Of a stretch of 38,402 nucleotides of DNA, positions 2,193-37,720 are shown piece by piece (the first letter of the stretch is position 1; every line of letters begins with the position of its first letter). The stretch spans positions 1-38,402 of the forward strand of contig CALFNG010000083.1 of assembly GCA_937902985.1 (NCBI GenBank), written 5' to 3'. This DNA is from an uncultured Myxococcales bacterium. GTDB taxonomy: Bacteria > Myxococcota_A > Polyangia > Polyangiales > Polyangiaceae. The notes under the pieces were generated by a model, which did no database searches, was not told where the DNA came from, and was given only the letters and a program-made list of their open reading frames with translations. The translations under genes were made by a program, and so were the position numbers.

Positions 2193-2210
2193 GGGGGGAG
2201 AGGGGGGAGA

Positions 2211-2251
2211 GACCGCAAAGGCGCAGAGGCGCGAAGTTGGAGGGTTCGAGA
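2211..2251. repeat. Dispersed repeat, copy A (single arm)
   Basis: Contains ccgcaaaggcgcagaggcg, a variant of the core shared with the copies at 33713 and 37051, followed 30 nt after the core start by GGTTCGAGA, which also follows the core in the other copies. The opposite arm is missing here. It lies between the converging lipoprotein and transporter genes. Confidence 0.6.
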
Positions 2252-33712: not shown

Positions 33713-33881
33713 GAGATTGGCCGCAGAGGCGCAGAGGGCGCGGAGCAGAGAGGGGGGGTTCGAGAGGGTCTACACGCAAGTCAGTCGGCCTTCACAACCG
33801 CTCCGGCTCTTCGAAGGCACGTTCCGGAGAGACCACCAAACCCTCTCCCTTGGCGCCCTCTGCGCCTCAGCGGCCAATCTC
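33713..33881. repeat. Dispersed repeat, copy B (long inverted repeat)
   Basis: The 29-nt arms at 33713-33741 and 33853-33881 are inverted copies with a single mismatch; both contain the core ccgcagaggcgcagagggcg or its complement (one substitution in the right arm). A GGTTCGAGA element follows the left arm, as in the other copies. It lies between the converging partner gene and the NUDIX gene, where it may also end transcription. Confidence 0.85.
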
Positions 33882-34334: not shown

Positions 34335-34365
34335 AGTGTACCTCGCCTGCAATCGTGCGATGTCA
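34335..34365 (-). promoter_or_regulatory. Possible promoter of the NUDIX gene
   Basis: TGACAT (34365-34360) and TACACT (34340-34335) are 19 nt apart on the minus strand, 7 nt before the ATG. The -10 box is a good match; the -35 box is weak. Confidence 0.35.
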
Positions 34366-34470
34366 CTCTACAGTGGCGCCGCGTCGTACCGCGTCAACGG
34401 ACGGACCGCCGCCGTTTGCCGGCTTGAACTCGGTTTCCTTGCGGTATCGTCCCCCGCCAAAGGACCCGCC

Positions 34471-37035
34471 ATGAACCACCCGGCTTTCCCGTCAGAAGAC
34501 GGCAACTTCAAGCGCGGGGCATTCAAGCCCATCGCCATCGTCATCGGCGTCCTCCTCGTCGCCGGCGCCGGCGCCTTCGCGTTCCTCGGCGTCCACACCG
34601 ACGCGCAAACGCTGAACAAGGAAGACGTCAACAAGGAGATCCGCGAGATCCAGCTCTTGCCGAAGGCCGAGCAGACGCCCCGCTGGCGCAAGTGGGCGAG
34701 CGTCGAGAACGAGCCGCGCCTCGAGCAGGAAGCCTTCGTGCACCTCGCGTGGGCCAAGGACAAGGCGAGCATCCCGTCGATGATCCAGGGCCTCGCGAGC
34801 CCCGATCACGCGGTTCGTGGCACCGCGGCGATGGCTCTTGTCGACTTCGGCTCACCCGATGCGGACGCGGCCAAGCCGGTGCTGTTGAAGGCGCTCCCCG
34901 AGGCCGACAGCAGCGACAAGCCCCAGATCTGCTGGGCGCTCGTGGCGCTCAAGGAGTCGTCGGCGTTCGAGCCCATCCTCGCCGAGTACAAGATCGGGCA
35001 CCTGGCGAGCGTGCAGCGCCTCGACGGTTTTCCCGCCTTCGACGCCAACAAGCTCGCGGCGCTCGTACCCATCGAGAAGATCGCAACGCTCGCCGGCGAC
35101 GAGAGCGAGAGCGTACGCCAGCTCGTGGCCTCCACGCTGTCGAACGACGCCGACCCCAAGTGGACCGACACGCTGATCACGCTGGTGCAGGACAAGAGCG
35201 TCGAGATCGCGCGCGAGGCCGCGGTCGGCCTCGGCAAGATCGCGAGCGAGAAGGCGATGCAGCCGCTGGTCGACGCGCTCAGCAAGGCCGACAAGGAGTC
35301 GCGAGAGAAGTTCTTGCAGGCGCTCCGCGACGGCGTCGGAGCCAACGGCCTCGTCCTGGCGCTCAAGACCGTCAAGCACGACAAGCCCGACACCGAGAAG
35401 TTCCAGACCAAGCAGATCTTCGACATGCTGAAGGAGCTCGAAGACCCGCGCGGCGGCGACGCGCTCTACGCGTACATCCAGACGAACCCCAAGCCCCACT
35501 GGAAGAACGAAGCCGCGATGCGCATGGCGGAGATCGGCGACGTGCGCGCGGCCGAGGCCCTGGGGCAGCGGATGTCCCAGGATCCGATGAAGCTCTACAA
35601 CGACATCGACTGGCCCGAGCTCCGCCGGGACGACAACGAGCGCGTGTACGGGGCCCGCATGCTCGCCGACCTCGCGGCGATCCACCCCGAGAAGCGCGAC
35701 TACCTGCTCAAGGTCGCCGAGCCCGGCGTTCTCTCGTGGATCGATCCCGAGAACAAACCGCAGCCGCACGCCAACGGCATGCGCTTCCTCGCGATCGTCG
35801 GATCGCAGCGGGCGGTCCCGATGCTCAAGAAGTGGGCGGACCCGAAAGACAAGCTCCCGGCCGAGGGCGCGCAGCCGCCGTTCCCCGAGAACTGGGCCAC
35901 GGCGCAGAGCGCGCTCCGTTACCTGGGGTGGACCCGCGCCCCCGGCGCCTGGGGCATCCTCGAGAAGCAGCTTCATCGCCGCATCCCGAAGCTCGACGTC
36001 TCGTGGGACTCGCTCATGCAGGGCGGCCTCACGATCGTCGGAATGACGCTCCGTGCCCTCGGCGTGGGCGCGTCCGACGGGTTCGCGCAGTGGGGCGACC
36101 CGAAGGCCTTCGACGACCTCACGAAGTACATCGAGGAGCCCAAGGAGAACGAGCAGGCGCGCATGGGCGCGTGCTTCGCCCTCGCGTGGGTCGCCACCGA
36201 TGATCAGATGAAGACCGTGGTGAAGAAGGTGCACGACGTGACGGGCACGGACCCGAAGTCGAACCTGCTCCGCCAGTGCTACCTCGAGACGCTCGTGCAC
36301 AAGCCGGTGCCCGACGCGACCGCGGGACTCGTCGACCTGCTCGTCCCCGCCGTCACGGACATCGAGACGCGGCATCAGGTGGCGCGCGCCATCGGCATGG
36401 GCGGCATCACGGAGAGCATGGTCCCCCAGGTGTTCGGCAAGCTGAGCGACGTGAGCCTCAAGGCCGACGCCGAGCTCGCGCTGATCCTCGGCGCCGACTC
36501 CGATACCGCGTCGCGCGCGCTGGCGACGTACAACGACACGGGCGTGACGGCCGAGGCCATCGAAGAGTTGAAGGACGTGTACAACAAGACCTTCGGCTAC
36601 TGGAGCGACAAGAACTACGACAACGGCGACATCGCGCGCTGGGTCGCGAACGCCGAGGCGCTGGCCCACGTGAAGATCCACGATCAGCTCCAGGACTGGC
36701 CGCGAATCATCCTCGGACGCAACCTGATCGAGTCAATCGAAGTCGACAACGGTCCGCACTCGATGACGCGCGTGCACCTCCGGGCCAAGCTCCTCGCGGA
36801 CGCCAAGGGGACCAACGACGTGAAGCGCACCGAGGCGATCGCCCTCCTCAAGTTCACCAAGGAGAAGGGCGTGCTCATGGCGCTCCGCAACGAGCCCGCC
36901 CCGCTGGGCGATCTCGCGCGCCAGGCGTTCTTCGAAGTGATGAACCCCAAGGCCAACGGCGAAGCCATCCCCGAGTACGCCAAGGCCCCCGTGACGGGCG
37001 GCGCTCCGGGCGGCCCCGGCGCGCCCGGTCACTGA
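34471..37035 (+). CDS. Membrane-anchored HEAT-repeat protein
   Basis: 854 residues. The ATG at 34471 has a ribosome site (AAAGGA, 7 nt upstream); the frame is open for 45 codons earlier without support. Seen: a short cytoplasmic N-terminus, one membrane helix (about 19-41), then a long repeat region made of paired helices of about 30-40 residues, for example IPSMIQGLASPDHAVRGTAA, VEIAREAAVGLGKIASEKAM and ARMGACFALAWVATDDQ, typical of HEAT repeats; the end is Gly/Pro-rich. Inferred: a periplasmic scaffold for protein-protein contacts. First gene of a probable operon with the lipoprotein and hydrolase downstream (gaps of 16 nt and a 4-nt overlap). Confidence 0.85.
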   Translation: MNHPAFPSEDGNFKRGAFKPIAIVIGVLLVAGAGAFAFLGVHTDAQTLNKEDVNKEIREIQLLPKAEQTPRWRKWASVENEPRLEQEAFVHLAWAKDKASIPSMIQGLASPDHAVRGTAAMALVDFGSPDADAAKPVLLKALPEADSSDKPQICWALVALKESSAFEPILAEYKIGHLASVQRLDGFPAFDANKLAALVPIEKIATLAGDESESVRQLVASTLSNDADPKWTDTLITLVQDKSVEIAREAAVGLGKIASEKAMQPLVDALSKADKESREKFLQALRDGVGANGLVLALKTVKHDKPDTEKFQTKQIFDMLKELEDPRGGDALYAYIQTNPKPHWKNEAAMRMAEIGDVRAAEALGQRMSQDPMKLYNDIDWPELRRDDNERVYGARMLADLAAIHPEKRDYLLKVAEPGVLSWIDPENKPQPHANGMRFLAIVGSQRAVPMLKKWADPKDKLPAEGAQPPFPENWATAQSALRYLGWTRAPGAWGILEKQLHRRIPKLDVSWDSLMQGGLTIVGMTLRALGVGASDGFAQWGDPKAFDDLTKYIEEPKENEQARMGACFALAWVATDDQMKTVVKKVHDVTGTDPKSNLLRQCYLETLVHKPVPDATAGLVDLLVPAVTDIETRHQVARAIGMGGITESMVPQVFGKLSDVSLKADAELALILGADSDTASRALATYNDTGVTAEAIEELKDVYNKTFGYWSDKNYDNGDIARWVANAEALAHVKIHDQLQDWPRIILGRNLIESIEVDNGPHSMTRVHLRAKLLADAKGTNDVKRTEAIALLKFTKEKGVLMALRNEPAPLGDLARQAFFEVMNPKANGEAIPEYAKAPVTGGAPGGPGAPGH

Positions 37036-37050
37036 CCGCTCTCGAGCGGA

Positions 37051-37146
37051 GATGAGGGAGCCGCAGAGACGCAGAGACGCAGAGGGAGCAGGTCCGAGAG
37101 GATCTGGGCCCTCTTACGTCTTCGCCCTCTGCGCCTCTGCGGCCAT
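37051..37146. repeat. Dispersed repeat, copy C, inside a signal peptide
   Basis: The left arm (37051-37086) carries ccgcagagacgcagagacgc and the right arm (37121-37146) the complement cgccctctgcgcctctgcgg. GGTCCGAGAGG lies between them, 30 nt after the core start as in copy A. Both arms lie within the first codons of the lipoprotein gene at 37052. Confidence 0.8.
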
Positions 37147-37720
37147 CGCTCTCCTCTCGTGCGTGCCGCCGGCGCCGGCGAAGCGCGTGGCGGTCGATTT
37201 CGTGGCATCGAATCTGGCGGCTCCGGCGGGGGCTGCGCTGGAGCAGGCCTGCACGCCCACGGGGCCGGAGATGTGCTTCAACGCCGTCGACGACAACTGC
37301 AACGGCGTCATCGACGAAGGGTGCGGCCTCGAGACCGGGCTCCTGCAGTTCACGATCGCCTGGAGCGCGGCGGCCGCAGACGTGAACCTGTCGATCACCA
37401 CGCCGGGCGACGAGCACTTGCCCAACGGCCGCGAGCGCTCGACGAAGAGCGGATTTCACCTCGATCGCGACTGTCCCGGCGAAGACGGCTGCGGTGGCCA
37501 GAACGTCGAGAACGTCTACTTCGACGGCGCCGAACCTCCGCGCGGCTCGTACTCGGTCGACATCACGCTGGCTGATCTGCATGGCGCCGAGTCGCCCGTG
37601 CAGGTGCACTTCGGCGCGCGCCTGGGGTCGCGAACCGTCGGGTTCGACGTCACGCTCGGTCCGGGCGCCTCGGGCGAAGACGCCGCGAAGAAGAAGACCT
37701 TCACGTTCGTGCTCGCGTGA
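37052..37720 (+). CDS. DUF2135-like lipoprotein with a D-x-D-C metal-binding-type motif
   Basis: 222 residues. Seen: an Arg-rich n-region, a hydrophobic stretch VFALCASAAIALLSC with lipobox LLSC (Cys37), then MCFNAVDDNCNGVIDEGC (74-91), a motif resembling the Cys-flanked Ca/metal-binding repeats of MopE-like proteins; then a beta-domain (FTIAWSAAAADVNLSITTPG, GSYSVDITLADLHGAESP) resembling the YfaP/DUF2135 fold. The signal peptide sequence coincides with the dispersed repeat. The gene starts 16 nt after the HEAT gene stop, and its TGA overlaps the GTG of the next gene (GTGA). Inferred: an outer-leaf lipoprotein working with the HEAT protein. Confidence 0.8.
   Translation: MREPQRRRDAEGAGPRGSGPSYVFALCASAAIALLSCVPPAPAKRVAVDFVASNLAAPAGAALEQACTPTGPEMCFNAVDDNCNGVIDEGCGLETGLLQFTIAWSAAAADVNLSITTPGDEHLPNGRERSTKSGFHLDRDCPGEDGCGGQNVENVYFDGAEPPRGSYSVDITLADLHGAESPVQVHFGARLGSRTVGFDVTLGPGASGEDAAKKKTFTFVLA

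Follow-up and report, generated by a model that had tools for sequence, protein, structure and literature searches.

The start of a lipoprotein gene in a soil bacterium coincides with a member of a dispersed family of palindromic repeats (copy C), which raises the question of whether this copy supplies the export signal of the protein. The window analysed here is the whole contig C83 (38,402 nucleotides) of an 8.3 Mb draft genome (G000; 563 contigs, 96% complete); among named relatives, those closest to it are Myxococcales/Polyangiaceae MAGs, including one labelled Labilithrix. For comparison, we mainly used the closer sister species G001 and the congener G002. A chimeric contig is unlikely, since the lipoprotein gene and the HEAT-repeat gene upstream of it adjoin in relatives too. 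All feature coordinates are listed in Table 1.

Table 1. Coordinates of the repeat copies, genes and signal peptides discussed in the text.
Feature	Position	Strand	Remarks
Single arm, CGCAAAG subfamily	2205..2236	+	Subfamily also in LptE-like gene
Copy B, intergenic	33713..33881		29-nt arms, 97% complementary
Upstream HEAT-repeat gene	34336..37035	+	PF13646, 1.5e-28; syntenic neighbour in relatives
Copy C, palindromic repeat	about 37045..37153		Consensus of 112 other arms, flank comparison, fold z = -4.2; outer ends approximate
Lipoprotein gene	37052..37720	+	Conserved in the order; product of 222 aa with a weak MopE-like motif
Predicted type II signal peptide	37052..37159	+	36 codons; lipobox pattern, hydropathy up to 2.48
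Left arm core, copy C	37061..37085	+	Arg-rich n-region, codons 4-12
Right arm core, copy C	37120..37142	+	Most of hydrophobic stretch, codons 23-31; outer end TCGCTCTC to 37153
Unrelated 102-bp palindrome in sister species	L032:1448-1549 (G001:C252)		GAGCCCCC...GGGGGCTC; over orthologous signal peptide
LptE-like lipoprotein	L172:2979-3638 (G000:C170:21657-22316)		Behind class I tRNA synthetase gene
Conserved lipoprotein	L223:60-315 (G000:C496)		Start and n-region apparently in repeat copy, five CTGCGCCCT units (PLRPLR...)

As the original prediction had proposed, the arms of copy C, which are 86-94% complementary to each other, lie over the 5′ codons of the lipoprotein gene. The left arm forms the Arg-rich n-region (PQRRRDAEG), and the right arm, forming most of the hydrophobic stretch, reads FALCASAAIAL together with its outer end TCGCTCTC. 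This outer end is the right end of the copy, has a 3-nt deletion compared to the consensus, and carries the residues I-A-L, while the left flank (GAGAT extended to GAGATG) holds the ATG start codon. With a conserved arm of about 39 nt (GAGAGgGAGATTGGCCGCAGAGGCGCAGAGGGCGCAGAG, the consensus of 112 other arm sites), the repeat runs further out than had been assumed: the first 34 codons are almost wholly one repeat copy, and only about LSC of the lipobox and the mature protein lie outside it. The lipobox LLSC is present as described, although it does not follow VFALCASAA at once, because the residues I and A intervene.

The open reading frame begins MREPQRRRDAEGAGPRGSGPSYVFALCASAAIALLSC..., and the MopE-like motif of its product falls below Pfam's cut-off. 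CASAAIALLSC matches the lipobox pattern, the n-region is positive (net charge +2), and a hydrophobic core is present. Codon 37 (37160-37162) encodes the lipobox Cys, at a position conserved among orthologues; as such a Cys is usually found at 15-35 (PROSITE rule), it is late. The D and E residues in the n-region also count against a working signal derived from the repeat. No well-spaced Shine-Dalgarno sequence was found for the start codon at 37052, which is paired within the hairpin predicted for 37036-37165 (z = -4.2), and this hairpin may lower translation of the lipoprotein. A real start beyond 37146 was considered too, and the sole downstream in-frame ATG, GTG or TTG codon is GTG 37163, past the conserved Cys. 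Translation presumably starts at 37052, and judged by its sequence the protein would be exported via the predicted repeat-derived signal.

Roughly a hundred copies of the repeat occur in G000, as paired arms around a variable middle, together spanning about 80-200 bp. Throughout this genome, a 17-nt arm occurs 244 times compared to 18 times for the reversed control, and a longer 23-position arm pattern 209 times compared to once. Within the window, GCAGAGRCGCAGAG is found seven times at ≤2 mismatches (1.84 expected; seven was reached by no shuffle), and copy C (37109-37145) matches copy B (33718-33754) by 84% over 37 nt. The arms are strand-asymmetric in composition. Purine-rich arms give RR-containing peptides, and the pyrimidine-rich arm reads LCALCASAANL in one frame (mean hydropathy 1.40; 0.26 and -0.18 in the remaining frames), the consensus of this hydrophobic frame of the right arm being LCALCASAANLAL. 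GAGATG with a correctly placed ATG is carried by 31 of 181 arms.

Many dispersed copies with inverted terminal arms and without coding capacity of their own make the family MITE-like. The sequence CTCTCG at both 37039-37044 and 37154-37159 is a possible target duplication, of low complexity and seen for copy C only; the ends of the other copies, inspected for the same feature, are variable purine/pyrimidine tracts. REP elements, which are mobilised by RAYT (Y1) transposases, are likewise high-copy intergenic palindromes located chiefly near gene 3′ ends. However, the G000 elements are longer with a variable middle. Mobilisation by a RAYT was rejected, since the Y1_Tnp profile (PF01797) has no match in G000 (96% complete) while matching 5 of 14 control genomes. 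G000 holds about a hundred REP-like palindromes, preferring convergent junctions, yet no Y1/RAYT transposase. The arm sequence was not found in relevant open-access papers, which were searched for a published name of the repeat.

For a census of element positions, 123 elements were sampled in 588 kb of G000 using a home-made codon-usage gene caller. As this caller trims the start of the window gene itself, overlaps with gene starts were sought separately via open frames. Between two genes, 101 elements could be placed (62 convergent, 34 tandem, 5 divergent); four overlap a called gene and 18 lie at contig or fetch edges. With most copies intergenic, chiefly between convergent genes, a dedicated export function of the repeat is not indicated, and the 62 of 101 placeable intergenic elements at convergent junctions led us to reject it as a general export cassette.

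Orthologues of the lipoprotein were found in 55 of 58 related genomes. In several relatives the gene lies directly behind the same HEAT-repeat gene, its start overlapping or abutting the HEAT stop codon. Beyond the window gene, the N-terminus is readable in 28 orthologues; every one of them shows a hydrophobic stretch that ends in Cys, their signal peptides differ from that of the window gene, and none matches the repeat (arm scores of 12-31 compared to 63 for the window gene). Because these orthologues already have the hydrophobic stretch and the Cys, the repeat replaced or rebuilt an existing signal; of the proposed alternatives that the insertion created or replaced an export signal, only replacement holds. 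The distance from HEAT stop to Cys is 124 nt in G000 and 44-116 nt in relatives without the repeat. Subtracting copy C leaves about 15 nt, compared to at least 44 nt in the measured repeat-free relatives, so the event was more than a clean insertion and ancestral signal sequence was lost. The signal peptide of G002 is non-repeat; a dispersed repeat there was rejected, since the sequence is single copy. Across 60 genomes of the family, the arm is near control level except in G000 and G018; G001 lies outside this sample and has a few related copies. In G018, which is not closely related at genus level, the same arm is expanded (89 compared to 20 for the control), possibly by independent amplification or transfer. 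These sequence comparisons show that the lipoprotein gene is old, as is its type II signal peptide, whereas the repeat is not; it was amplified in this species.

The G001 orthologue (71% identity) carries a different palindrome over the same segment, between a GTG start by the HEAT stop and the tail LCVSLSVSC. One 91% copy and several weaker ones occur elsewhere in G001; a significant counterpart was found in neither G000 nor G002. Its length of 102 bp is a multiple of three. A remnant of the GCAGAG repeat, the family of copy C, was rejected for the G001 signal peptide, as its arm score of 27 falls among those of orthologues lacking the repeat. That unrelated repeats lie over the same signal peptide in the two closest species points either to separate captures at a permissive site or, with lower probability, to a shared older insertion with later nesting; the chance of a repeat at this single G001 site need not be tiny.

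The second of these histories, in which the GCAGAG repeat predates the G000/G001 split and the G001 palindrome was nested into it later, would turn two captures into one older exaptation. It could draw on the few related repeats in G001 and on the segment CTCTGCG..TCGCTCTCCGTCTCCTGC, which resembles the end of the G000 right arm. Given the arm score just mentioned, and since pyrimidine-rich signal peptides look like the arm anyway, we regard it as unlikely. Both palindromes also form strong hairpins between the HEAT and lipoprotein genes despite their unrelated sequences, as would be expected if the junction hairpin were kept for a role in RNA (attenuation, mRNA processing or translational control) and coding were a side effect. 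However, no hairpin of similar strength occurs in G002 and the farther relatives (values of -0.33 to -0.56 kcal/mol per nt, with one relative equal to G000), and most of them have no spacer at all, which makes such a role very improbable.

A different objection is that the repeat simply damaged the gene, leaving it poorly translated or started at GTG 37163 without export, with an open frame that is accidental in GC-rich DNA. The pairing of the start codon and a long, atypical n-region would fit this, and random open frames are common in G000. Against it, the frame, the hydrophobic stretch and the lipobox are all intact, the lipobox is kept in all 28 readable relatives, and the mature frame is intact and under purifying selection compared to G001 (dN 0.187, dS 0.63, dN/dS about 0.3, a pairwise value not specific to the time after insertion). 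Damage of this kind therefore seems quite unlikely.

The explanation that we favour, and consider probable, is that a MITE-like palindrome was inserted and replaced the lipoprotein gene's 5′ end, with the resulting signal tolerated and partly co-opted. A repeat amplified in the G000 lineage would have landed at the boundary between the HEAT-repeat gene and the old lipoprotein gene, displacing the 5′ end of the latter. The start codon would then come from GAGATG at its left end, the Arg-containing n-region from the left arm, and the hydrophobic core from the single hydrophobic frame of the right arm, with about LSC and the mature protein as the ancestral remainder. A signal peptide depends on charge and hydrophobicity and requires no fixed sequence; therefore a repeat of this kind would be one of the few elements able to land on a gene start and still leave a plausible signal. 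Function may be retained here because Sec recognition calls for charge followed by hydrophobicity ahead of the lipobox. The repeat spans the start codon and the signal peptide, and the signals of homologues are unrelated, as is characteristic of a repeat-derived signal peptide. Tolerance, rather than selection for the repeat, presumably fixed the insertion; it accounts for the data. The proposed direct exaptation is not borne out in its adaptive form, as the G001 palindrome fits a permissive site as well as co-option.

A genome search for repeats over further signal peptides, as suggested by the original prediction, yielded one convincing and one weaker case. In the LptE-like lipoprotein, a related palindrome of the CGCAAAG subfamily (about 110 bp) lies in frame within the signal peptide. 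The G000 protein reads MPRSIGRTAKAQRRE...LRAFVPLRFLPLVLAVVAALALAAC, compared to MIERRFFVAALVTLALPSC in G012 and MSVAGARGRGAIALAALVAAC in G002, all beginning at the upstream stop codon, and in G002, G006 and G012 the orthologous signals are short and contain no palindrome. Translation might alternatively begin at a GTG within the repeat arm. The gene has no confident family match and is labelled by its position and CGYR start. The weaker case is the conserved lipoprotein on C496, whose n-region is probably repeat-derived, because the single start downstream of the repeat leaves no n-region. At a GH6 lipoprotein (L133:1726-3020, minus strand; G000:C241), a repeat arm offers an in-frame ATG further upstream, preceded by a purine-rich stretch; this gene was rejected as a further case, as a good GTG start is available downstream of the repeat and use of the start in the repeat is uncertain. 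Lipoprotein genes are weakly enriched beside elements (6/35 compared to 25/430, p = 0.02, counting the window gene), and p is 0.39 when only distances up to 110 nt are considered.

The closest known parallel is the Yersinia RU-2/YAPL repeat, which forms residues 1-30 of the YPO1552 signal peptide while the signals of homologues are unrelated (Delihas 2007, PMC2759123; review PMC2229807). In both genes a dispersed palindrome gives the start and most of the predicted signal peptide, and the window gene belongs to the same class of event. It differs in the unrelated repeat sequence, the lipoprotein signal, the second unrelated repeat over the orthologous signal of the sister species, and the further lipoproteins in G000. 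Rickettsia palindromic elements (about 100-150 bp) are also read in frame inside protein-coding genes (Ogata et al. 2000, as cited in PMC2229807 and PMC10969869). They often lie inside genes, whereas the G000 family is almost always intergenic, with the coding cases found at signal peptides. Set against the open-access literature, the new elements are the setting in a lipoprotein, the sister species' unrelated repeat over the orthologous segment, and the second convincing case in G000. A broader reading, in which dispersed palindromes are recurrent raw material for lipoprotein signals and independent repeats rebuild the same class across genes and species, is tentative and rather doubtful. In this reading, the pyrimidine-rich arm would be a hydrophobic core by nature and the purine-rich arm an Arg-rich n-region, in some copies bringing its own ATG.

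The origin of a signal peptide can seldom be traced, and such sequences diverge rapidly. For the window gene, relatives reveal the ancestral state, the DNA that served as source can be identified, and the corresponding segment of the sister species holds an unrelated palindrome. Thereby, the notion that repeats readily serve to rebuild export signals becomes directly testable.
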